Source: Asanoa sp. WMMD1127
Lineage (GTDB): Bacteria; Actinomycetota; Actinomycetes; Mycobacteriales; Micromonosporaceae
Direction of reading: 5' to 3'
DNA: 64,000 nt
NCBI RefSeq assembly: GCF_029626225.1
Contig: NZ_JARUBP010000001.1
Coordinates: 1,550,001-1,614,000, forward strand
This document shows, piece by piece, positions 19,517 to 31,099 of the stretch (positions within the stretch are counted from its first letter, which is position 1; each line of letters starts with the position of its first letter). The notes under the pieces are model-generated. The model saw only the letters and a list, made by a program, of their open reading frames with translations. It did not search any database and was not told the origin of the DNA. The position numbers and the translations under genes are program-made.

Positions 19517-20362
19517 ATGTCCCGCCCAGGTTCGTCCCGGTGTCGGGCCCTTAGCGCAGCCGCCGCATTCGGATTCGCGATCGCTCCCGTTCCGACCCCC
19601 ACTCCAACCCAGCTCGACGACGGTTCCCTGGTCTTTTGTCTCGATCATCAAGACGACCTCGTACGCGCCGCGATTGCGCTCGACCGCGGCACGCCGGCGG
19701 AACAGCCGGAACTGATCCGCGTCGGATCCCGCGACCTCCAGGTCGACGAATGGCGGCGACTTTATCCCGCTGATTTCACGCGCAGTTGTCAGGCACTCCG
19801 CATCGCCGGCCCGCGGCCCAGCCCGGCGCCCGCCGTCGCCGAACGCCCCAACAGCACCCCGCATCCGCTGATCGCGCCGATCACCACGCTGACCGCCACC
19901 GTCGTCGGAGGCGTGCTCACGTTCCTGCTCACGAGGTCACGCGACCAGGTGGCGCTGCGCCGCCAGGAGGCGCAGGACCTGCAGGGCGCCGCACAAAGCT
20001 TCGAATCGGTGGTGCGCCGCTATGTGTACGGTTGGCTGGAGAAGAAAAAGACCAAAGACTCGCCGAGCGAACCACAGGTCATCGAGCGGAGCGTCGAGCT
20101 CGCCACCAAGCTGCGCCGCGTCCAGAATGCCCGGCCGACCTGGGACGAGCCCACGGACCTGCTGAACCAGCTGGAGAACGAACCGCTCGGCCGATTTCTC
20201 ATCGACACCGAGGCATGGGCGCCACTTGATCAAGCGGATCGCCAGCGACGGGCGGACCTAATCTTCAGCTCCCTTGCCAATCTCGCGCGCGATGCCGACC
20301 ATATTGCTTACCTCCACCAGCGCCCACGGCAACGGAAACCCGCCACCTCGGAGACCGGATGA
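19517..20362 (+). CDS. Hypothetical membrane protein, first gene of a three-gene ATPase operon
   Basis: 281 residues. An N-terminal hydrophobic stretch (about 10-25) with a PTPTPTQ linker, a small domain with CLDHQDDLVRAAIAL and a Cys at the end (DFTRSCQAL), then one clear membrane helix (TLTATVVGGVLTFLLT, about 118-135), followed by a long charged cytoplasmic helix-rich region with KKKTKDS. The final codons overlap the next ATG (ATGA). No family is recognised. It probably anchors or regulates the two downstream P-loop ATPases. Confidence 0.7.
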   Translation: MSRPGSSRCRALSAAAAFGFAIAPVPTPTPTQLDDGSLVFCLDHQDDLVRAAIALDRGTPAEQPELIRVGSRDLQVDEWRRLYPADFTRSCQALRIAGPRPSPAPAVAERPNSTPHPLIAPITTLTATVVGGVLTFLLTRSRDQVALRRQEAQDLQGAAQSFESVVRRYVYGWLEKKKTKDSPSEPQVIERSVELATKLRRVQNARPTWDEPTDLLNQLENEPLGRFLIDTEAWAPLDQADRQRRADLIFSSLANLARDADHIAYLHQRPRQRKPATSETG

Positions 20363-21279
20363 ACCCGTTTCTCGTTCTCGGTTGCGCCGACGCGCGGACT
20401 CCGCTCAATCCAGGTGTGCACGGGTCCCACGAGGATTACGCCGACGTCGACCACACGAAGGAACAGTTCGAGGTCTTCAAGAACGAGTTCGGCACCGGTG
20501 AGGGCGTGCTGCGCACCGGCCGGCTCGTGGTGGCCAGCGGGCCCGCCGGCAGCGGCAAGACCTCGCTGGTCAACCGCTGTGTGAAGCACTTCCTGGCCAA
20601 GGCCCGGGAGTGTGGGCGCCATCCGATGGTCATCGACCTCCGCCGCGACCGGCTCGACCGCGGCGAGACCGCGGAGCGGATGCGGCTGCTGAGCGAACGG
20701 CTGGTCGACGAGCTGACCGTCCACGATATGATCAATGCGGACGGCGCGACGGCGCAGCGCTCCACCGACCCCGACCGGATGTTTCCGCTGCTGAGCAAGG
20801 AGTTGGGCGAGAACACGATCGTGGCGGTCCTGCTGCCGCCGTCCGGGGACCTGATCGCCGAACTGATCGAGTACGCGCGGTTCGCCCGCGGCAAGCTGAT
20901 GTTCTTCGCGGAGACTTCGTTCTACCGGCGACTGCGCGACCAGCGGGCCGAGTTCCACTCGGCCGGCGGCACAGCACCGCTCTTCCTGGAGCTGGGTCCC
21001 CTCAACGAGACCGACGGCGACCTCTTCCTCGTGCACCGGCTGACCCGGCACCGCGACGAGGGCGGCGGCTGGCCCGACGGCGCCGAGCCACCGAACCCGG
21101 CGACCGGCAAGCTGGAGAAGTTGGTCAGCGAACGCCCCATGTCGATCGGCGAGCTCCAACTGCTCCTGCACGAGATCTACGACCTGCTCCTGACCGAGGT
21201 GCCGCAGCCGGAGCTGTCCGACGAGCTGTTCCTGCGCGCCGTCCTGCGACTGTCGGCGCCCGGGAGTGGTGAGTCATGA
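20359..21279 (+). CDS. P-loop ATPase (AAA/STAND-like), small subunit
   Basis: 306 residues, starting in a 4-base overlap with the upstream gene. Walker A GPAGSGKTSL at about 61-70 follows a short N-terminal region with LGCADARTPLNPGVHGSHEDY. A second strand carries MVIDLRRDRL; a clear Walker B acidic pair is not obvious (TIVAVLLPPSGDL is the candidate). The C-terminal part is helical (PMSIGELQLLLHEIYDLL). Its stop overlaps the next start, so the two ATPases are made together and probably work as a pair. Family not recognised. Confidence 0.72.
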   Translation: MNPFLVLGCADARTPLNPGVHGSHEDYADVDHTKEQFEVFKNEFGTGEGVLRTGRLVVASGPAGSGKTSLVNRCVKHFLAKARECGRHPMVIDLRRDRLDRGETAERMRLLSERLVDELTVHDMINADGATAQRSTDPDRMFPLLSKELGENTIVAVLLPPSGDLIAELIEYARFARGKLMFFAETSFYRRLRDQRAEFHSAGGTAPLFLELGPLNETDGDLFLVHRLTRHRDEGGGWPDGAEPPNPATGKLEKLVSERPMSIGELQLLLHEIYDLLLTEVPQPELSDELFLRAVLRLSAPGSGES

Positions 21280-23498
21280 CCTTCGCCAACCCGTTTCCCT
21301 CGATCACCGCCTCGGGCCAGCCGGTCGACCCTGACCTGGCCGTACGCACGGCCGCCCTGACCACCGCCACCCAGCTCTTCGACGCCTTCCTCCAGGGGGC
21401 GCAGCAGGGCGGCGTGCTCGCCGTGATCGGCGGGGCGGGCACCGGCAAGACGTTCCTCTCGGGCGTGCTGCGCGGCATGGCCGACCGGGCCGACCCACCG
21501 GTGCAATCGTTCTACGCGCAGGTCAGCGCCACCTCGTTCCGCGAGGTCCTCGGCTCCTTCGTCCGGGCCGTCAAGCGTGACGACGGCGCCGTCCAGTCCG
21601 GGGTGCGCCACCTCTACGCCGAGGTGGTCGCCGACGCCCTCGAAGGGTCCGACCTCGGCCGGCAGCTCGGCGTGCGGCTGCGCGACGGCCGTCTCGACGC
21701 GGTCACCCTGGTGCAGCGCCTGCGCCTCGACCGCAGCGCCTACCTCGAGACACTGACCCAGCGTCTGGAGGAGCTGACCGACCACCCGGGCATCGCGACC
21801 GCCCTGACGCTGTTGCTGCGCCCCGGCTTCGACGACGCCGTCTGGACCTGGCTCGCCGGCGCCGAGCCGGCCGGTGTGCTCCGGGACCGGCGGATCACCG
21901 CCGCGCTGGCCAGCGACGCCGACGCGCTGCGGGCCATGGGCGCCCTCGTCCGCGTGGTCTGCGCGCCGGGCCGCAAGCTGCTGCTGACGTTCGACGAGCT
22001 GGAGCGCGCGTTCGGCGCCGACCGGCCCGTCACCGAGGAGACGGCGACCGCGCTGCGGCGGTTCCTGGCCGGCTCGGCCAGCGCCGGGGCGTTCGTCGTG
22101 CTCTCCGGGTTCGCGTCGTTCCTGGAGAACCTGCCCGAGGACGTACGCGACCGGATCGGTTCGACGATCCAGACCTCGCCGTTCGAGCCGGAGGACATCC
22201 AGCAGCTGGTCACCACCAGCCGGGCGGCGGTGGGTGGCCCGGCCGCGCCGCCACCGTTCAGTCCGAGCGTGGTCGAGCACCTGGCCGACCTGACGGCCGG
22301 CGTACCCCGATTGATCGTCGATCTGTCGCACCGCCTCGTCCGGGCGACGCCGGCGACGGCGGCGACCATCGACGACACCGCGATCCAGACCGCCGCGCAG
22401 GCCTATGTGGTCGAGCGACACGGGGCGTTCTTCGCCGAGGAGATCCGGCGCACCCTGGTCGAGCGGCGGTGGAAGGTCGAGACCAACCGCTACGTCGGTC
22501 TCAGTTCGGACTCCCATGTGGACTTCTGGGTCGCCGAGTCCGACGGCGGTGAGGGTTGCGCGATCCTGGTCGCCGACAACGTGATCAGCCCGGCTGAGAT
22601 CACGCACCAGCGCGACCGCATCTTCACCGTCAAGGAGGGCCTGCCCACGGGCGAGATCCTGCTGGTCGTCAAGGGCTTCCTCGCCCAGGAGGCGGATCGC
22701 CAGCTGACCGACCTGACCGGCCGGGCGCCACTGGTCGCGCAGCCGGGCCGGGTCGGTCGCGACCTCACCCGGCTGGTCGAGCGCATCCTCGCGTCGTTCA
22801 CCGCGCAGGACGCGGTCGAGCGGGTCGGCAACCGGCTCGACCGGCTGGGCCAGCACCAGGCGACGATGCATCAATATGTGGCCCAGCTCGCGCTGTCGAT
22901 GAACGAGCTGCGGACCGCCAACGAGAAGCAGCTCGCGGAGCTGATGGACCGGCTCGAGGAGCAGCCGCGGGCCGTCGCGGCCGAGGAGACCGCCACGCGG
23001 CTCCCGGAGGCCGTCGAGGCGATGCTGGCCGACGCCCTCTACGTGCTCGACGAGCTGCTCAAACGGGTCGACATGCTGTTCACCGACGCGCTGCACGTCG
23101 CACCCGACCGGGCCCGTGACACCCGGATGTCGCTGCGCGCCCGACTACGCCAGCGCAACACCGCGCCGGCGGCCGGTGTGGTCGCGCTGCTCCAGCGCCT
23201 GATCACCGCGTTCCGCACGGAGCTGCGGCTCTGGTGGGCGCGCGAGGCGGAGAAGCCGCCCTCGACCCGCGACGTCCGCACGCTCGACGCTTTGTGCGTG
23301 ACCTACGCGGTGGCCTGCGAATATCTGCCGCTGTTCCACCTCGACGAGCTGCGCCACGTCACGACCCGCTTCGTCGGCGACCCCGACGACCCGCAGGCCG
23401 ACCGCGCCACCGACGTCCGCGCCTCGGACCTCTTCCCCACCCTCGCCGGCCGGGTCCAGACCGAGCTCAACGCCCCCAGCGCGGTCCGCCGCCGTTAG
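21276..23498 (+). CDS. Large AAA-type ATPase with coiled-coil and C-terminal helical domain
   Basis: 740 residues, translationally coupled (ATGA) to the small ATPase. Walker A AVIGGAGTGKTFL at about 48-60, Walker B KLLLTFDELERAF at about 233-245, sensor-like SGFASF, and a winged-helix-like region to about 390. A beta-rich segment SDSHVDFWVAESDGGEGCAIL (about 410-430) could be a nuclease- or sensor-like fold. A coiled coil (about 525-570, NRLDRLGQHQ...NELRTANEKQLAELM) and a helical C-terminus follow. This resembles the ATPase of a STAND/conflict or regulatory system, but I do not recognise the family. Confidence 0.72.
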   Translation: MTFANPFPSITASGQPVDPDLAVRTAALTTATQLFDAFLQGAQQGGVLAVIGGAGTGKTFLSGVLRGMADRADPPVQSFYAQVSATSFREVLGSFVRAVKRDDGAVQSGVRHLYAEVVADALEGSDLGRQLGVRLRDGRLDAVTLVQRLRLDRSAYLETLTQRLEELTDHPGIATALTLLLRPGFDDAVWTWLAGAEPAGVLRDRRITAALASDADALRAMGALVRVVCAPGRKLLLTFDELERAFGADRPVTEETATALRRFLAGSASAGAFVVLSGFASFLENLPEDVRDRIGSTIQTSPFEPEDIQQLVTTSRAAVGGPAAPPPFSPSVVEHLADLTAGVPRLIVDLSHRLVRATPATAATIDDTAIQTAAQAYVVERHGAFFAEEIRRTLVERRWKVETNRYVGLSSDSHVDFWVAESDGGEGCAILVADNVISPAEITHQRDRIFTVKEGLPTGEILLVVKGFLAQEADRQLTDLTGRAPLVAQPGRVGRDLTRLVERILASFTAQDAVERVGNRLDRLGQHQATMHQYVAQLALSMNELRTANEKQLAELMDRLEEQPRAVAAEETATRLPEAVEAMLADALYVLDELLKRVDMLFTDALHVAPDRARDTRMSLRARLRQRNTAPAAGVVALLQRLITAFRTELRLWWAREAEKPPSTRDVRTLDALCVTYAVACEYLPLFHLDELRHVTTRFVGDPDDPQADRATDVRASDLFPTLAGRVQTELNAPSAVRRR

Positions 23499-24436
23499 AG
23501 ATCGGCCAGCCGGGCGCTCAGCTCGGCGAACCGGTCCTCGACGCTGGCCACATAGGACTGGGTCAGGGTCACGCCGAGCAGCTGGCGGCCGCCGCCCAGC
23601 CAGCGGTTCATCACCACGCCGTCTTCGACGTCGAGCACGACCGACTTCGCGGACCGGCCCAGCACCGGGTAGACCAGCCGGCGCAGGTCGCGCAGGTCGC
23701 CGTCGAGATCGGTGTGGAAGCCCCAGTAGACCCGGCGGAGCCGGGCCGGCGTCGTGTCGCCGTGGGTCTCGAGCTGGGCCAGCCCGCCGAAGCAGTCGAC
23801 CGCGCAGGCCGTGCCATCGCCGCCCTGGTAGAGCACGTATTGCAGGCGTTCGTCGACCGCCGCCCGGCACACCTCGAGGACCTCCGCCGCACCCGTGCCG
23901 GTGATGACCGGCTGACCGGTCGGTGGCCGCAGCTCGACGCCGGCCGGGATGGGCTGGAAGCCGCCCGGGTTCTGGTCTTCTAGCCCGAACAGCTCCCGCG
24001 CCTCCGAGACGAGCCCGGCCAGCGCCCGGTCGGCCTCCTGCACCTCGGGCGCCACCGTGACGGTCGGCTCGGCGGGCTGGTCGCGCAGGCAGAACCCGGC
24101 GAGATAGCCACGACCGGGGATCGCGTAGGCCAGCACGGCGCCGCGCGGTGTCTCGAGAACCAGCCGGATCAGCGCGCCGGTGCGGGCCACCTGGAGCTTG
24201 TCGTGCAGGTCGAGGCAGGAGCCCACGACACCCTGGACGGCGATCCGGGCCTGCCGGCGGCGCACCGGGTCGATCTCGAACTGGTCGATCGAGAACGCCA
24301 GGTCACCGTCGGCGACCAGGCTCAGGTGGGTCACGTTGGGGATCCGCCGCGCGAGCTCGGCCGACGAGAACAGCAGGTCGTGAAAGTCGTCCACCGGAGG
24401 CGGATCGATGTGGACACCCGCGAAGGCCTGCGTCAC
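23495..24436 (-). CDS. Hypothetical protein convergent with the ATPase operon
   Basis: 313 residues without signal peptide or membrane helix. Mixed alpha/beta pattern, with strands VTHLSLVADGDLAFSID, ALIRLVLETPRGAVLAYAI and YVLYQGGDGTACAVDCFGG. The last codons overlap the tail of the large ATPase gene by four bases. It follows the large NB-ARC/TPR gene after 3 bases on the same strand, so the two are surely one operon. No known family is recognised; its job is probably tied to the NB-ARC/TPR protein. Confidence 0.7.
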   Translation of the reverse strand: MTQAFAGVHIDPPPVDDFHDLLFSSAELARRIPNVTHLSLVADGDLAFSIDQFEIDPVRRRQARIAVQGVVGSCLDLHDKLQVARTGALIRLVLETPRGAVLAYAIPGRGYLAGFCLRDQPAEPTVTVAPEVQEADRALAGLVSEARELFGLEDQNPGGFQPIPAGVELRPPTGQPVITGTGAAEVLEVCRAAVDERLQYVLYQGGDGTACAVDCFGGLAQLETHGDTTPARLRRVYWGFHTDLDGDLRDLRRLVYPVLGRSAKSVVLDVEDGVVMNRWLGGGRQLLGVTLTQSYVASVEDRFAELSARLADL

Positions 24437-24439
24437 GCC

Positions 24440-27400
24440 TCACACCTCCGGCACGTCGATGTCGATGAACAGCGTCAGCGGCACCCGGCGCGGGCCGCCG
24501 CTGACATATTCGGCCGCCGCCCGGGTGTAGGGGTGGCCGTTGCCGAGGAACTCCTCGCACAGCCCGAAGCTGTGCAGCGCGGCATCGTCGCGGCCGCCGG
24601 TCATCCCGCCGAGGTTGAGCTGGGCGGCGAGCACCCAGGGATGGACCTCGCCGAGCCGGCCCGCGAGACCCTCGACGGCCTGCTGGGCCTGCGCCCGTGC
24701 CTCGTCGCCGCGCTGCGCGCCCCACAGCGTCACGGCCAGGTTGGCCCGGGCGACCTCGATGAACGGGTGCGCCGCGACCAGCGCCTCGGTGTAGCCGTCG
24801 AGGCACAGCTCCGCGAGGTCCTTGGCCTCTTCGAACTCGCCCAGCCGGAACAGGTCCATGGCGAGGCTGAGGCGGGCGGCCTGCGTACGCGGATGGTTGG
24901 CGCCGAAGGTGTGGCGGTAGCCGTTGACGGCCTCGTTGTCGAGCTGGCGCGCCACCGCGTAACGCCCGAGCCGGCGCTCGGCCACCGCCAGATGTCCCTT
25001 GATCCGCAGCACGTCGGGATGGTTGGCGGACTGGAACTTGCGGACCCGGTCGAGGGCGGCGTAGAGCCGGCGACTGGCCTCGCCGTAGCGACCGAGCTCG
25101 CGCTGGAACCCGGCCGCCGCGGCCATCGACCACCAGGTCAGCGGATCGTCTGGGCCGAAGAGGGCCTCGCGTCGGGTCAGCGTGTCCTGCTCGAAGAAGA
25201 AGGCCCGCTCCGGGTAGCCCGCGAGGAAGCACGAGCTGGCCAGGTTGTGGCTGGCCTGCAGCGTCTGCGGGTGGTCCTCGCCGAAGAGCTCGCGGTAGCG
25301 GTGCCAGGTGCCCTGGTCCTGCGCGAGCGCCTCGGCGAACTGGCCGAGGCCGCGCAGGTCGCCACTCATTCCCCGGCGGGCGTTGAGCACCCGCACGGAG
25401 CGGGAGCTGCGTCCTTTGAGGACACCGTCGAGCAGCCGCTGGTCCTCGGCGAGCGACTCGTGCGGCCGGCCCATCAGCCGCAGCAGGTCGGCCCGGTAGG
25501 TGGCGAGCTGGATGGACAGCGACTCGCGCGGTGACTCGCCGCCCGTCCAGGCGACCAGAGCCGTCTCGGTGAGCGCCAACAGCTGGGCCCGGGCCACCGC
25601 GTCGTCGTCGTCGGAGGTCCAGCGCAGCTGGGCCAGCACCCAGCGCCGGACCGGCCACTCGGTGGAGACCAGCGCGCCGGAGGGCTGCAGGTGCGGCCGC
25701 AGCTCGGCCAGCACCTCGACGTCGCCCAGGCGCCCGGCGGCATAGCCGGCCAGCCCGCGGCATGCCTGCTCGCGGCGGTGCTCCTGCTCCTCGGGCGACA
25801 TCGCGCCCCGGACCATCGCCCGGACCAGCCCGTGCATCCGCAGGTCGGACTCGGCGCCCCAGAACACCGCGAACAGCTCGAGCCGCTGGCCGAGCCAGAT
25901 CACCTGGTCGAGGTCGAACGGCTCGTCGAGCAGGTCGCCGGCGTCGCCGTCGGCGGCCGCCGCCGCGATCTGCTCGACCATCGCCGGCCAGCGCAGCAGC
26001 GACAGGCTCACCCGGGCCGGGTCGAGGAAGCAGCACAGCTCGGCCACCCGCCGGGTGAGCCGGCCGAGCGGATGCCGGTCGAGCTCGGCGAGGGTCAGCG
26101 CCACGATCGCGCTGAACGACGCGCCGCCGGCCTCGGTCAGGCGCTCGCGGACGTCGTCGGCCGCCGCGGAGGCGGCCTCCGAGGCGGAGCTGCCGACGCG
26201 CAGCTCGCGCCCGGCGGCCAGCTGCCGGACCAGCGCGCCGACCAGGTGCAGGCTCAGCGGCGCCCGGCCGGTCGCGCCGATCAGCTTCTCGCCCTCGACA
26301 CCGGGCAGGGCCGGCGCGTAGCCACGCAGGATGGCCACCGCCTCGGCGACCGTCAGTGGTTTGACGACGACGTGCTTGTTGACCGACGCCCACAGGTTGG
26401 GCAACCGGTTGGCGGCCTGTGGCTGCGCGGTGATCACGATGTGGCCGAAGCCCTCGGTGGGCAACAGGGACGCGAGCGTGTCGACGTCGTCGGCGGCGTC
26501 GTAGACCAGCAGCGTGCGCCCGGGCGGCGCCGACCGCAGCGCCTCGAAGGTCGCGGCCACCATGTCGGCCGACGGCTCGACCCCCATCACGTAGCCGAGC
26601 CTGGTCAGGCTGGCCCGGACCGCCTGCTCGTCGCCGGCCGGAATCCACCAGACCACGTCGTAGTCGTAGGCGAAGTTGTGTGCGTAGGCCTGGGCGATCG
26701 CGCTCTTGCCCACGCCGGCCTCACCGGCCAGCACCACCACGCCGACGGTCTCCGACTCGACCAGCGCGGTGCGGATCTCCTCGAGGTAGGCATCGCGGCC
26801 GACCATGCGCGTGCTCGCCCGCGGCACGGAGAAGTGCTTGTCACCGGCGGACGCCTCGGCGAGCGGGAAGCGCTGCCGCGACTCGCGACCCGCGACCTCG
26901 ACCATGCGGTCGCCCATGCCGAACGCGGCCAGCAGCCGTTTGAGGGCGTCGGCCTCGACCGGTGTGGTCAGGTCGACGGTGCGGGCCAGCGGGAACGCGT
27001 CGTGCCGGCTCGGCTCGACGTTGAGCAGCACCGTCTCGAGCGCCTCGGCGCCGGGTGACGCGCGCAGGTGGTCACTGACCTCGGCCGCGACCGGCGCGGC
27101 GGCGAACGCGGACGAGCCGATCAACACGAGCAGAGCCCGGTCGGGGCCGGCCAGCCACTCGCGCTGCTGTTGCCAGGCGCCGACCTCGAAGCCGAGCAGG
27201 CGCAGCTGTTCGCTGACCCAGTCGGCCCAGGGCCGGTCGGCGGGCGCGTAGGCCAGCAGGGCCCGGGTGTTGATATCGCGGGCGTCGCCGGTCAGGCTCC
27301 GCCGGTAGCGTTGCCGCACCGGCGCCGGGATCGGCGGCAGGCTGGGGATCTCGCGGTCGGTGACGAACCAGACCAGGTCGGCGAACGCCTCGAACACGCC

Positions 27401-28165
27401 CGCGGTGCGGGGTGTCGGGGTCGGCTCGTCGAGCAGGATGCTCAGCGCGTCGCCCGCCGCCGCGAGCTCAGGCACCTTGACCACCCGGTCGGCGAAGGCG
27501 GGGCCCAGCCGGCTGAACGCCTGACGGATCTCGCCGATCGTCTGGCTGGCCCGCGGGAGGACCCGGGCGTCGAACGGCACGGCCACGGCGGCCGTGCGGC
27601 GCGGCCGGCTCGCGGCGTCGCGGATGCTCAACGCGGCCTTGACCGCGTCGCGGATCGGCGCGTATTGCGGCTGGAAGCAGATGACGACCGCGTCGGTCAG
27701 GCCCGCGATCAGCGCGGTGTGGGTCTCGGACGCGGCCGGCAGCCCGACGAGGATGACGTCGTAGCGGGTGCGCCGAAGCGCCGCCCGGACCTCGCCGCTG
27801 GGCACCGTTTCCAGGCGGTCGCCGCGGAGCACGGAAAAGGGCCGGCTGGAGCCGAGCAGATCGAGACTCCCGCGCCCGACCGGAAGGATGTATCGGGAGA
27901 GTGACAACGGATTGTCGATGAATTGGCTCACCAGCCGGGCGGCCTCGGCGTCGAGAAGATCATTTGGATCGCTGACGCTCATCAGGAACGGGTCGAGAAA
28001 GCCGCGGACCAGTTCACTGTCGGCGCCCGAGTCGATCACGAGCACTTTCTTGTCGACGTGGCAGAGCGCGACCGCGGTGTTGGCGATCAGCCGCGTGACG
28101 CCGACCTCGGGGCTCGAAGCGGCGAACGTGACGATCGTGGGCGCCGCTGGGCTTCGGTCGGTCAT
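24440..28165 (-). CDS. fxsT: FxSxx-COOH-system-type NLR-like protein: degenerate ParA, TIR-like, NB-ARC, TPR
   Basis: 1241 residues. About 1-265 follows a ParA/MinD-like fold (TIVTFAASSPEVGVTRLIANTAVALC...KVLVIDSG), but the Walker A lacks its lysine (GVTR instead of GKT), so it probably does not hydrolyse ATP. About 300-410 is TIR-like (ALLAYAPADRPWADWVSEQL, LLVLIGSSAF). About 445-700 is NB-ARC with intact Walker A AGEAGVGKSAIA (near 478-489) and Walker B TLLVYDAADD. A winged-helix region and about ten TPR units follow (for example HPRTQAARLSLAMDLFRLGEFEEAKDLAEL). This order matches the tetratricopeptide protein of FxSxx-COOH systems. It begins 16 bases after the precursor-like peptide gene, in one operon. 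It likely senses or uses the modified peptide, as an inference. Confidence 0.8.
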   Translation of the reverse strand: MTDRSPAAPTIVTFAASSPEVGVTRLIANTAVALCHVDKKVLVIDSGADSELVRGFLDPFLMSVSDPNDLLDAEAARLVSQFIDNPLSLSRYILPVGRGSLDLLGSSRPFSVLRGDRLETVPSGEVRAALRRTRYDVILVGLPAASETHTALIAGLTDAVVICFQPQYAPIRDAVKAALSIRDAASRPRRTAAVAVPFDARVLPRASQTIGEIRQAFSRLGPAFADRVVKVPELAAAGDALSILLDEPTPTPRTAGVFEAFADLVWFVTDREIPSLPPIPAPVRQRYRRSLTGDARDINTRALLAYAPADRPWADWVSEQLRLLGFEVGAWQQQREWLAGPDRALLVLIGSSAFAAAPVAAEVSDHLRASPGAEALETVLLNVEPSRHDAFPLARTVDLTTPVEADALKRLLAAFGMGDRMVEVAGRESRQRFPLAEASAGDKHFSVPRASTRMVGRDAYLEEIRTALVESETVGVVVLAGEAGVGKSAIAQAYAHNFAYDYDVVWWIPAGDEQAVRASLTRLGYVMGVEPSADMVAATFEALRSAPPGRTLLVYDAADDVDTLASLLPTEGFGHIVITAQPQAANRLPNLWASVNKHVVVKPLTVAEAVAILRGYAPALPGVEGEKLIGATGRAPLSLHLVGALVRQLAAGRELRVGSSASEAASAAADDVRERLTEAGGASFSAIVALTLAELDRHPLGRLTRRVAELCCFLDPARVSLSLLRWPAMVEQIAAAAADGDAGDLLDEPFDLDQVIWLGQRLELFAVFWGAESDLRMHGLVRAMVRGAMSPEEQEHRREQACRGLAGYAAGRLGDVEVLAELRPHLQPSGALVSTEWPVRRWVLAQLRWTSDDDDAVARAQLLALTETALVAWTGGESPRESLSIQLATYRADLLRLMGRPHESLAEDQRLLDGVLKGRSSRSVRVLNARRGMSGDLRGLGQFAEALAQDQGTWHRYRELFGEDHPQTLQASHNLASSCFLAGYPERAFFFEQDTLTRREALFGPDDPLTWWSMAAAAGFQRELGRYGEASRRLYAALDRVRKFQSANHPDVLRIKGHLAVAERRLGRYAVARQLDNEAVNGYRHTFGANHPRTQAARLSLAMDLFRLGEFEEAKDLAELCLDGYTEALVAAHPFIEVARANLAVTLWGAQRGDEARAQAQQAVEGLAGRLGEVHPWVLAAQLNLGGMTGGRDDAALHSFGLCEEFLGNGHPYTRAAAEYVSGGPRRVPLTLFIDIDVPEV

Positions 28166-28181
28166 CGACTGTCCACCTCGG

Positions 28182-28385
28182 TCAGGAAGCTTCGGGGGAC
28201 TCCATTCTCCCGTCGACCATCATGTTCTGGAACCCATAAAAAGCGGGTGATGCTCCGTCGTTCTCGTGCAGTAGTCGCCGCAACGAAGAGAGCAACGCCG
28301 TTTCCGGCAAATCGTCTAGACCCTCCAGGCCCCTGCCCTGGAGGTCCAAGAGATCCGAGATAAGATCGGCGTCCTCACGACCCAT
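28182..28385 (-). CDS. fxsA: FxsA-like RiPP precursor peptide, variant core
   Basis: 67 residues from ATG 28385. The leader DADLISDLLDLQGRGLEGLD, then LPETALLSSLRRLLHENDG, has the acidic, Leu-spaced pattern of FxsA precursors, which normally end in the core F-x-S-x-x at the C-terminus. Here the corresponding core is F52-Q-N-M-M56: the Ser is Asn, and an 11-residue tail (VDGRMESPEAS) follows, so both defining features are altered. Upstream in-frame starts (to 28463) are rejected because a -10 box lies inside that extension. It is co-directional with the TPR gene 16 bases downstream and divergent from the HExxH gene. The identification rests on leader pattern and context. Confidence 0.7.
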   Translation of the reverse strand: MGREDADLISDLLDLQGRGLEGLDDLPETALLSSLRRLLHENDGASPAFYGFQNMMVDGRMESPEAS

Positions 28386-28430
28386 GCACCGACCACCGCC
28401 TTGGCCTCGCGCGCGATAATGAACCGCGCC

Positions 28431-28457
28431 ATCATAGTCCCTGCGATCTTTCGGCAA
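28431..28457 (-). promoter_or_regulatory. Candidate promoter for the precursor-peptide operon
   Basis: On the minus strand TATGAT (28436-28431) is a near-consensus -10, with TTGCCG (28457-28452) 15 bases upstream as a possible -35. Transcription would start about 40 bases before ATG 28385. The spacer is short, so the -35 is uncertain. The 107-base gap is shared with the divergent HExxH gene. Confidence 0.35.
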
Positions 28458-28492
28458 CCGCACCTAGGACGCATCGCGGAGGCGATTCGGAC

Positions 28493-29785
28493 GTGGCGAT
28501 TCCAGCGACCCATCGCCTGAGCCAGACGACCTTCACCGCACTGTGCGGCGGCGGGGGCGGGCCGGCCACGATCCGCCAACTGCGCGCGGCCCAACGCAGC
28601 AAGACCATTCTGGCGATCGGCGCCGTCGTCGCGCTCGCGGAGGAGACCCGACACCCACATCGGACCCTGACCGCCGACGCGTACGCCCTGCTGCGGGAGC
28701 TGGAGGCCGACCGGCCGGCGGCGGTCGGCGCGGCGCTCGACTACCCGTCCGTCGGTGCCTGGGCGCTGCGCACCGCGCATGCCCTGCACCGCGGCGACCA
28801 CACCGGCGCCGAGCCGGCCTGGCTCGGCGCGGTCGCCGCGACGGCCGCGGTGCGGGCGGGCGCCACCGCCCGGTTGTCCGTCCAACCACGACAGCGCGGT
28901 CACCTGCCACTGCCCTCACTCGGCGTCTGCACCGCGCTCGACCCCGCGGCGCCGGTCGAGTTCGTGTCCGGGAGCGACGGCGCCGAGCTGCGCACCGGGC
29001 ACCGCCGGATCAAGGTCGGCGCCGATCCACAGTGGTCCGCCGTGCCGTGGCTGCGGGCGGCCCACGGCGAGCTGGCCGTCGACCTGCGGTTCGACCACCT
29101 CGACGCCGACGACGCGCCGGCGCCGGCCGGTGCCGACCCGCGCACCGCCGCCGCCTGGGCCGAGCGGGTCAACCCGGCCTGGCAGGTGCTGGTCGACCGG
29201 CACCATCCGGTGGCCGTCGAGTTCGCGGAGGCCATCTCGGTCCTGGCGCCGTTGACGGATCCACCGGCCGGCACGGTCAGCGCCACGGGCCGCCACGCGT
29301 TCGGCGCGATCGCCATGTCGACCCCCGCCTCACCCCGCTCCGTGGCGGTCACCTTCGCCCATGAGCTGCAGCACGCCAAGCTGTCCGCGGTGATGGACCT
29401 GTTCCCGCTGGTCTCGGGCGACCCGGGCGGTCGGCACTACGCGCCCTGGCGGCCCGACCCACGACCGTTGATCGGCCTGGTCCACGGCGTCTACGCCCAC
29501 CTCGCGATCGCCGACTTCTGGCGCCGCGAGCTCCGCACGCCCGACGGCGAGCTGTCGCTGGTCGCCTTCGAGTTCGTCCGCTGGCGCGACGCCGTGCGCG
29601 ACACCGCGGCCCGCCTCGCCGGCAACGACCGCCTGACCGACCTCGGCCGCCGCCTGATCCACGGCGTGCTGGCCGAGGTCGACGGCTGGCAGGCGGAGGT
29701 GCCGGCGGGGGCGGCCGCCCGCGCCCGGGCGGCGGCCGCCGACCACCGCGACCGCTGGGTCCGGGCCCACGGCCCGATCAGCTGA
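28493..29785 (+). CDS. HEXXH-motif peptide-modifying enzyme (aKG-HExxH beta-hydroxylase-like)
   Basis: 430 residues from GTG 28493 with GGAGG upstream. The single recognisable catalytic motif is FAHELQHAKLSAVMDLFPL (HELQH, near residue 290), the signature of the HEXXH domain found fused to, or next to, FxsB radical SAM enzymes. Members of this family have been named alpha-ketoglutarate HExxH-type peptide beta-hydroxylases; the HExxH histidines bind metal. Here it stands alone, with no CxxxCxxC radical SAM cluster in it or nearby. It is divergent from the precursor peptide, so it is the prime candidate modifying enzyme. N-terminal ~200 residues are helical and probably bind the leader. A metalloprotease role is the alternative. 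Confidence 0.75.
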   Translation: MAIPATHRLSQTTFTALCGGGGGPATIRQLRAAQRSKTILAIGAVVALAEETRHPHRTLTADAYALLRELEADRPAAVGAALDYPSVGAWALRTAHALHRGDHTGAEPAWLGAVAATAAVRAGATARLSVQPRQRGHLPLPSLGVCTALDPAAPVEFVSGSDGAELRTGHRRIKVGADPQWSAVPWLRAAHGELAVDLRFDHLDADDAPAPAGADPRTAAAWAERVNPAWQVLVDRHHPVAVEFAEAISVLAPLTDPPAGTVSATGRHAFGAIAMSTPASPRSVAVTFAHELQHAKLSAVMDLFPLVSGDPGGRHYAPWRPDPRPLIGLVHGVYAHLAIADFWRRELRTPDGELSLVAFEFVRWRDAVRDTAARLAGNDRLTDLGRRLIHGVLAEVDGWQAEVPAGAAARARAAAADHRDRWVRAHGPIS

Positions 29786-30694: not shown

Positions 30695-31099
30695 CTACTG
30701 CGGTGGCGCGAGGAACGGGGATGGCAGCGCGGTCCGCGGCGCACGACCTTCGTGCTCCTCGTACGCGTCGCGGACCGGCTTGGGGATGGCGCCGCGATCA
30801 CCGACCGCGTCGAGTCCGAGCTGGGCGCCGTACCGCTTGGCCCACGCCCGGATCGCGCGGGTCTGCTCCCGCTGGCTCGCCCCTTGCGGCGAGATCACCG
30901 TCCGGGCCTGGCGGGCGCCGCCGGGCGTGAGGCGGGTGCCGGCGTCGACGAACGGCTGGAGCGCGCGCCGCAGCTTCCCGGCGTTGGCGCTCGACAGATC
31001 GATCTCGAAGGCCGTCCCGTCGAGCGCGAAGCTCACAGTCTCGTTGGCGGTGCTGCCGTCGAGGTCGTCGACGAGCGTCACGATGGTCGACTTTGCCAC
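30695..31099 (-). CDS. lsr2: Lsr2-family nucleoid protein with altered DNA-binding motif
   Basis: 134 residues from GTG 31099. N-terminal dimerisation domain STIVTLVDDLDGSTANETVSFALDG matches Lsr2. The C-terminal domain is SQREQTRAIRAWAKRYGAQL...DRGAIPKPVRDAYEEH. In mycobacterial Lsr2 the AT-rich minor groove is gripped by the RGR motif; here the second Arg is Ala (RGA). It also has a C-terminal extension (GRAPRTALPSPFLAPPQ). Lsr2 silences AT-rich, acquired DNA; this may be a weakened or partner-type paralogue beside the accessory gene block. Between 30546 and 30694 nothing is supported. Confidence 0.88.
   Translation of the reverse strand: MAKSTIVTLVDDLDGSTANETVSFALDGTAFEIDLSSANAGKLRRALQPFVDAGTRLTPGGARQARTVISPQGASQREQTRAIRAWAKRYGAQLGLDAVGDRGAIPKPVRDAYEEHEGRAPRTALPSPFLAPPQ

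Follow-up and report, generated by a model that had tools for sequence, protein, structure and literature searches.

The window analysed here, a stretch of 64,000 nucleotides from the soil actinomycete Asanoa sp. WMMD1127 (G000:C1:1550001-1614000; genome of 7.97 Mb, 100% complete, in 3 contigs), carries a four-gene peptide-processing set without the radical SAM enzyme FxsB. The set is real and belongs to a known kind of system, of which it represents a variant that has seen little description to date. It comprises an FxsA-like precursor, an FxsT-type protein, a Roadblock-fold protein (p313) and a stand-alone HExxH enzyme. A hydroxylase-only pathway is the likeliest reading of our combined analyses: the set would be a variant of the actinobacterial FxSxx/peptide-processing systems that lacks FxsB, and probably any radical SAM step, and in which the HExxH enzyme alone hydroxylates the F-Q-N core of the precursor. 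We judge this reading to be somewhat better than an even bet.

On the minus strand of the window, the gene for the precursor (67 aa, 28182..28385) is followed 16 bp on by that for FxsT (1241 aa, 24440..28165) and, 3 bp later, by that for p313 (313 aa, 23495..24436). The HExxH gene (430 aa, 28493..29785) lies on the plus strand and diverges from the precursor across a 107-bp intergenic region read from the sequence (28386..28492), whose counterpart in locus L044 is available for comparison. A divergent cassette of a 67-aa FxsA-like ORF, an FxsT-like protein and a stand-alone HExxH protein had been proposed in a first-pass annotation, and NCBIfam matches of 569 bits for FxsT and 160.5 bits for the HExxH protein bear it out; the interval given there, 28182-29785, encloses the precursor and the HExxH gene but leaves out FxsT and the fourth gene. 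The cassette meets two adjoining ATPase ORFs (306 and 740 aa, 20359-23498, plus strand), with AAA/NACHT matches below cut-off, which are convergent with p313. To its right, an Lsr2-type protein is encoded at 30695-31099 on the minus strand (Pfam Lsr2, 90.6 bits); neither this ORF nor the other right-flank ORFs (methyltransferase, 583-aa and GalT-like) have a match in the loci of four relatives, of which approximately 7-10 kb of the right side was covered.

The gene set itself is retained well beyond this genome. In G003, of the same genus, the HExxH protein, FxsT and p313 are 75%, 80% and 76% identical, respectively, and in Rugosimonospora africana (L041, Micromonosporaceae) they are 62%, 57% and 50% identical, with the same gene order in both; the same four genes occur at 29-41% identity in G052 and G040. 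By sequence, the precursor-FxsT-Roadblock operon and the divergent HExxH gene are kept together in related genera. The short ORF, whose conservation in relatives the first-pass annotation had proposed to check, is likewise retained, at 88% identity in G003 (L044), 67% in R. africana and 36-38% in G052 and G040.

The precursor was identified from its ORF translation, the NCBIfam model TIGR04268 (FxSxx-COOH) and its relatives. The TIGR04268 match (E=4.7e-6, 26.7 bits for a 93-aa reading from an upstream start) falls below the curated cut-off of 28, as does the score of 27.3 bits from the genome search. In the translation, a leader (residues 1-48) precedes the core FYGFQNMM (49-56) and the tail VDGRMESPEAS (57-67); core and tail are encoded at 28185..28241 on the minus strand and include, on the evidence of translation and relatives, the conserved motif F52-Q53-N54. 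Instead of a terminal F-x-S-x-x-COOH, the precursor therefore has F52-Q-N-M-M56 followed by an 11-residue tail, V57-S67, and its R60-M-E is not the RxD of another described peptide type (PMC7159879). The altered core and tail reported earlier are thus present, and F-Q-N is conserved, but the exact core and tail vary: five precursors read FQNMMVDGRMESPEAS, FQNMMVAGRMEDPESP, FQNAMVDRRIEPPTPS, FQNYLDAQRYVNP... and WQNYVDVENFVKPAAER, and only [F/W]-Q-N is common to all five. A conserved ARMD-like tail in the window's clade was also considered and is unsupported beyond G000, G003 and, loosely, G025, which belongs to the same family.

FxsT (NF040586, 569 bits against a cut-off of 300) begins with a MinD-like region, recognized by weak matches, in which the P-loop is degenerate (SPEVGV, without Lys). 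This region is accompanied by an NB-ARC domain with an intact P-loop, GEAGVGKS (23.4 bits, cut-off 23.5), a weak TIR-like stretch (TIR_2, 24.4 bits, cut-off 28) and C-terminal TPRs (TPR_12 over cut-off). The fourth protein, p313, is kept after FxsT in four relatives and across the wider subfamily, and was assigned as a tandem Roadblock/LC7-fold protein from its fold model and conservation. The Roadblock/LC7 topology is alpha-beta-beta-alpha-beta-beta-beta-alpha; in the AF2 model (pLDDT 89.2), the first such unit is complete and the second similar. The first Foldseek match is Roadblock3 (9jue; E 4e-4, TM over target 0.74), the second and third are Mon1-Ccz1 chains (TM at most 0.25), and the Roadblock protein 3kye and MglB appear within the first ten. 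Pfam and NCBIfam searches of p313 gave no match over cut-off, and no Pfam Roadblock match at E 1.

Relatives of the window's HExxH type are common in large actinomycetes, with matches in 247 of 354 family genomes (E 1e-20), 38 of 101 relatives and 72 of 394 class genomes, counts obtained at differing E-value limits. Loci were selected by ranked similarity to the window's HExxH protein and annotated with purpose-built profiles, and the fractions below are not population estimates. Out of 148 HExxH rows, 143 were kept: those with a length of 340 or more that lay no closer than 1.5 kb to the end of the fetched stretch, together with L063 as an exception. Removal of 27 without a called precursor left 116. 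The core rule [FW]xS replaced [FWY]xS after a first look at the data (L048 has YAS before WQN; the tail of L042 was cut). Weak precursor calls (E of at least 0.01) were retained for L052, L071, L075, L084, L099, L186, L196, L199, L213 and L221, as was the precursor of L064, which holds an X, and the precursor profile was built partly from the same loci as those counted. A locus was scored as FxsB-bearing when the centre of a profile match lay no more than 3 kb from the HExxH domain, or when the two were fused, and as Roadblock-linked when the p313 profile matched anywhere in the fetched stretch.

FxsB was found nearby or fused in 72 of the 116 loci, of which 53 have an F-x-S core, 9 F-x-N and 10 another core, while the 44 FxsB-less loci divide into 7, 14 and 23, respectively. 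Among Roadblock-linked loci, the 22 with FxsB comprise 20 with F-x-S, one with F-x-N and one other, and the 16 without it comprise 14 with F-x-N, two others and none with F-x-S. FQNMM, set against F-x-S-x-x in the first-pass annotation, is not foreign to FxsB: F-x-N is not diagnostic, because 9 of the 72 FxsB-bearing loci have it (for instance FQNSL in L061 and FQNLAS in L059), and we rejected the idea that replacement of F-x-S by F-x-N strictly marks the loss of FxsB. Seven FxsB-less loci outside the Roadblock subfamily keep F-x-S (L042, L074, L086, L090, L091, L191 and L222); the four of these whose genomes were checked (L074, L086, L090 and L091) have FxsB elsewhere. Nor is the window a unique oddity, an idea we likewise discarded. 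The absence of FxsB had been presented as an exception, a claim weakened because FxsB-less HExxH loci recur and because PMC7159879 had described RxD and acidic types in 2020.

Fisher's test of F-x-S against FxsB, with related loci taken as independent, gives 7e-9 for the Roadblock subfamily, 8e-4 for the remaining loci and 1e-9 for all loci together, values that are too small because the loci are related. When F-x-S and F-x-N are pooled, the difference disappears in the Roadblock subfamily (21/22 versus 14/16, p 0.56) and stays in the rest (1e-6). The local FxsB state changes 9 times on a 101-row HExxH tree (6 changes forced by well-supported branches) and 12 times on a 116-row quick tree. Independent-pair tests on the trees, which have no power, offered 5 supported pairs and no significance, so the link between core and FxsB is an association and not proof of co-evolution.

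The survey also brought out other groups of precursors. FxsB-less loci outside the Roadblock-linked subfamily end, for example, in ITSGYNPQRLD, NLGTGPPGRAD or ISGYNGSFSDRMRP..., and true RxD ends, such as PPGRAD and NPQRLD, occur among them. One RxD-type group ends in GYNPQR[ILV]D (L049, L057, L068 with one more G, L154, L155, L157 and L165) and another in N[LI]G..GPPG(Q)R[AVI]D (L060, L070, L073, L075, L081 and L084); G246, G297 and G051, among the RxD-type members, gave no FxsB in a genome search. A separate group of FxsB-bearing Roadblock-type sets (L130-L148 and L168, leaving aside L134 and L142, which had no called precursor) keeps F-x-S with a short acidic tail, ending in YA[GAD][FW][EQN]S[AV][LI]DG[EDR]D.

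The ends of the FxsB-less precursors bear on an alternative in which the tail is cleaved off oxidatively by the HExxH enzyme at an x-R-phi-[D/E] motif (G59-R-M-E in this precursor), with a C-terminal amide left behind; PosC carries out such a reaction at ARMD. The motif x-R-[AVILMFT]-[D/E] occurs in 20 of the 44 FxsB-less precursors and in only one of the 72 FxsB-bearing ones, where it lies upstream of the core. PosC tolerates GRMD instead of ARMD but then cleaves only partially (PMC12636437), and PesO hydroxylates the Pro preceding R(V/T)DN (PMC12636437, PMC13060819). In the window's own clade, however, the Gly is found only in G000 and G003, G025 has Arg in its place, and the motif is absent in G052 and G040. 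The motif also has few origins: it changes 8 times on the tree, and independent pairs that are informative are too scarce for a test. PMC7159879, moreover, had named the RxD type earlier without assigning it such a role. Overall, we regard tail removal as unlikely.

A different alternative would supply the missing chemistry from elsewhere in the genome. The earlier observation that FxsB is absent from the window extends to the whole genome, in which TIGR04269 finds nothing over its cut-off of 370 bits and scores best, at 78.5 bits, on AmcB. Genome-wide searches also found no FxsB over cut-off in G025, G052, G040 and G051, and none at 1e-60 in G353, G311, G373, G302, G244, G224, G246 and G297, so that 13 genomes have the precursor/HExxH/FxsT set with no FxsB found; this check leaves out G734 (L224), a genome outside the family. 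Other F-x-N members have FxsB elsewhere in the genome (G003, G118, G115, G150 and G283), and the FxsB of G003 has partners of its own, namely another HExxH gene and a precursor with FSSFVS.

All 14 radical SAM loci of the genome (15 Pfam matches) were scanned with family models. Twelve belong to LipA, MqnE, RlmN, CofGH, Rv2578c, MoaA, MqnC, RimO, HpnH, MiaB, HemW and TIGR03960, families among which we know of no peptide maturases; the Rv2578c-family protein (L176:412-2388, plus strand) is matched by an intein-containing NCBIfam model at 874 bits. The remaining two are of RiPP type and lie far from the cassette. AmcB, of a cyclophane-forming family, is encoded approximately 230 kb away (G000:C1:1808374-1809444; L170:851-2110), and the other locus encodes a radical SAM C-methyltransferase (G000:C1:4965218-4967089; L175:719-2590), in which a motif script found no CxxxCxxC in frame.

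Either enzyme might act in trans on the precursor, above all AmcB by cross-linking F-Q-N, and the pathway would then not be free of radical SAM chemistry. Both family matches are strong (526 bits against 425 for NF041718, and 535 against 281.85 for TIGR03975). The AmcA-like ORF directly downstream of AmcB, taken as its precursor, ends in AWNHFENIPTFYNWNNRPR, which suggests that aromatic-x-Asn may be the type of site AmcB uses. Nevertheless, AmcB is over cut-off in 18 of 19 genomes checked, namely all 18 of the window's family, whether FxsB is present or not, and therefore does not track with FxsB-less sets. Moreover, relatives that lack an HExxH match (e.g., G013, G015 and G026) have FxsB-model matches of similar strength, and the AmcA-like and FxsA-like peptides have no similarity (E 0.99). 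An action in trans thus seems quite improbable.

The properties of the HExxH protein itself point to hydroxylation. It matches TIGR04267 at 160.5 bits (cut-off 40) and contains H290-E291-L-Q-H294, P318-W-R320 and R324-P; H290, E291, H294, W319, R320, R324 and Y334 are kept in all 39 FxsB-less rows compared. Among solved chains, the closest in sequence are 22nu (E 3.4e-40) and ChlH (8s5f, E 1.2e-4). A predicted structure (pLDDT 94.3) gave SjiH-Ni (22ob, TM 0.82/0.86) as the best fold match, followed by the ChlH domain (8s5f, E 6.6e-9 to 2.8e-8). Sequence and structure model together show the protein to have the fold of alpha-KG-HExxH hydroxylases and their invariant residues, and a hydroxylase role is predicted.

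Published members show what such enzymes can do. ChlH hydroxylates His and Asp after cyclophane formation (PMC12636437, PMC13060819), and the cyclophane must be installed before it acts (PMC12636437). Co-expression of PosC with its precursor, and with no other enzyme, led to hydroxylation of linear consecutive Gln residues and, in a Q90N variant, of Asn (PMC12636437). The protein could instead act as a metallopeptidase and cut a C-terminal peptide off the precursor, the role that Kaur et al. assumed for their MPTase (PMC7159879), and PflC is described as proteolytic when the leader is absent (PMC12636437). Against this, both sequence and fold place the protein beside SjiH and ChlH, the highest-ranking peptidase among the fold matches, next after ChlH, is a collagenase peptidase domain at only E 0.84, and the characterised HExxH members reported in PMC12636437 and PMC13060819 are 2-oxoglutarate oxygenases, which makes a peptidase role quite doubtful. 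A decaying relic after FxsB loss, to which the TIGR04268 score just under cut-off might point, is highly improbable given that the precursor is under purifying selection (dN 0.072 versus dS 0.49 between G000 and G003), the HExxH invariant residues are kept and the four-gene set is conserved across genera.

In the favoured hydroxylase-only pathway, which the first-pass annotation had raised as a possibility and which we propose by analogy, the leader (DLLDL...SLRRL) would bring the precursor to the HExxH enzyme, which, with Fe(II), O2 and 2-oxoglutarate, would beta-hydroxylate Asn54, or else Gln53, of the linear F-Q-N. An FxsB, if present, would be expected to act at this Asn54 position and join its beta-carbon to the Phe ring. 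The modified peptide would probably stay in the cell rather than be exported, because the conserved set holds no transporter. FxsT, as a STAND NTPase, may sense or carry it via its TPRs, with p313 as a presumed partner of this switch, and the peptide would then serve as a signal or effector inside the cell and not as an antibiotic. Signalling, rather than export, seems the more probable function of the gene set.

Several lines of evidence favour action by the HExxH enzyme alone: the 13 FxsB-less genomes, the kept residues, the SjiH/ChlH fold, the precedent of PosC, the cores of the Roadblock subfamily and the purifying selection. Weighing against it are the cyclophane need of ChlH, F-x-N beside FxsB, the pooled p of 0.56, the non-independent counts, the presence of AmcB and the C-methyltransferase in the genome, and the seven FxsB-less loci with F-x-S. 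A broader proposal, which we offer tentatively and consider rather unlikely, would make the alpha-KG-HExxH enzyme the sole maturase of a family of FxsA-leader peptides; it would hydroxylate the Asn beta-carbon that FxsB would cross-link and trim the tail oxidatively at x-R-phi-[D/E], and the linear product would be an intracellular STAND/Roadblock ligand.

With the cross-linker gone and the precursor, HExxH protein and STAND partner kept, the two modifications appear to be separable. The FxsB-less set can reveal the effect of hydroxylation by itself and whether this is read by the STAND protein, and it provides a one-enzyme, one-peptide system for asking whether HExxH proteins work on linear peptides.

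Our literature search, whose scope left out most subscription journals, returned no paper on an F-x-N, FxsB-less set, and for FxSxx only PMC7159879 (Kaur et al. 2020) was pertinent. That paper describes actinobacterial peptide-processing systems composed of a zincin-like HExxH protein, read as a peptidase, a small precursor and an AP-ATPase with TPRs and TIR, and distinguishes FxSxx, RxD, acidic and FtsH-linked peptide types. It names a radical SAM/SPASM gene to go with FxSxx peptides and another radical SAM enzyme with FtsH-linked ones; its section 24 names none for the RxD and acidic types. The window has each component of the stand-alone form, namely an HExxH protein, a small precursor and an AP-ATPase-TPR protein with the inactive MinD-like domain that also marks that form in the paper. 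Its F-x-N and long tail, in contrast, fit none of the four peptide types as given there, and its set includes p313, while the word "roadblock" is absent from the paper's main text. With the FxSxx-COOH cyclophane RiPPs (FxsA/FxsB; TIGR04268, TIGR04269), the window shares the leader type and the FxsT partner, but it lacks FxsB and the terminal F-x-S-x-x and has an extra tail. The window's enzyme shares its fold, HExxH motif and PWRxDxRP region with SjiH and ChlH (22ob, 8s5f); ChlH, however, is part of a radical SAM fusion and, according to PMC12636437, acts only once a cyclophane is in place, whereas the window's enzyme stands alone without FxsB. In the same paper, PosC and PflC come from Pseudomonas, where their clusters also hold an MNIO-nitroreductase; the likeness drawn here concerns the enzymes, which are of HExxH type and modify a linear peptide without a second enzyme, at Gln and, in a variant, at Asn.
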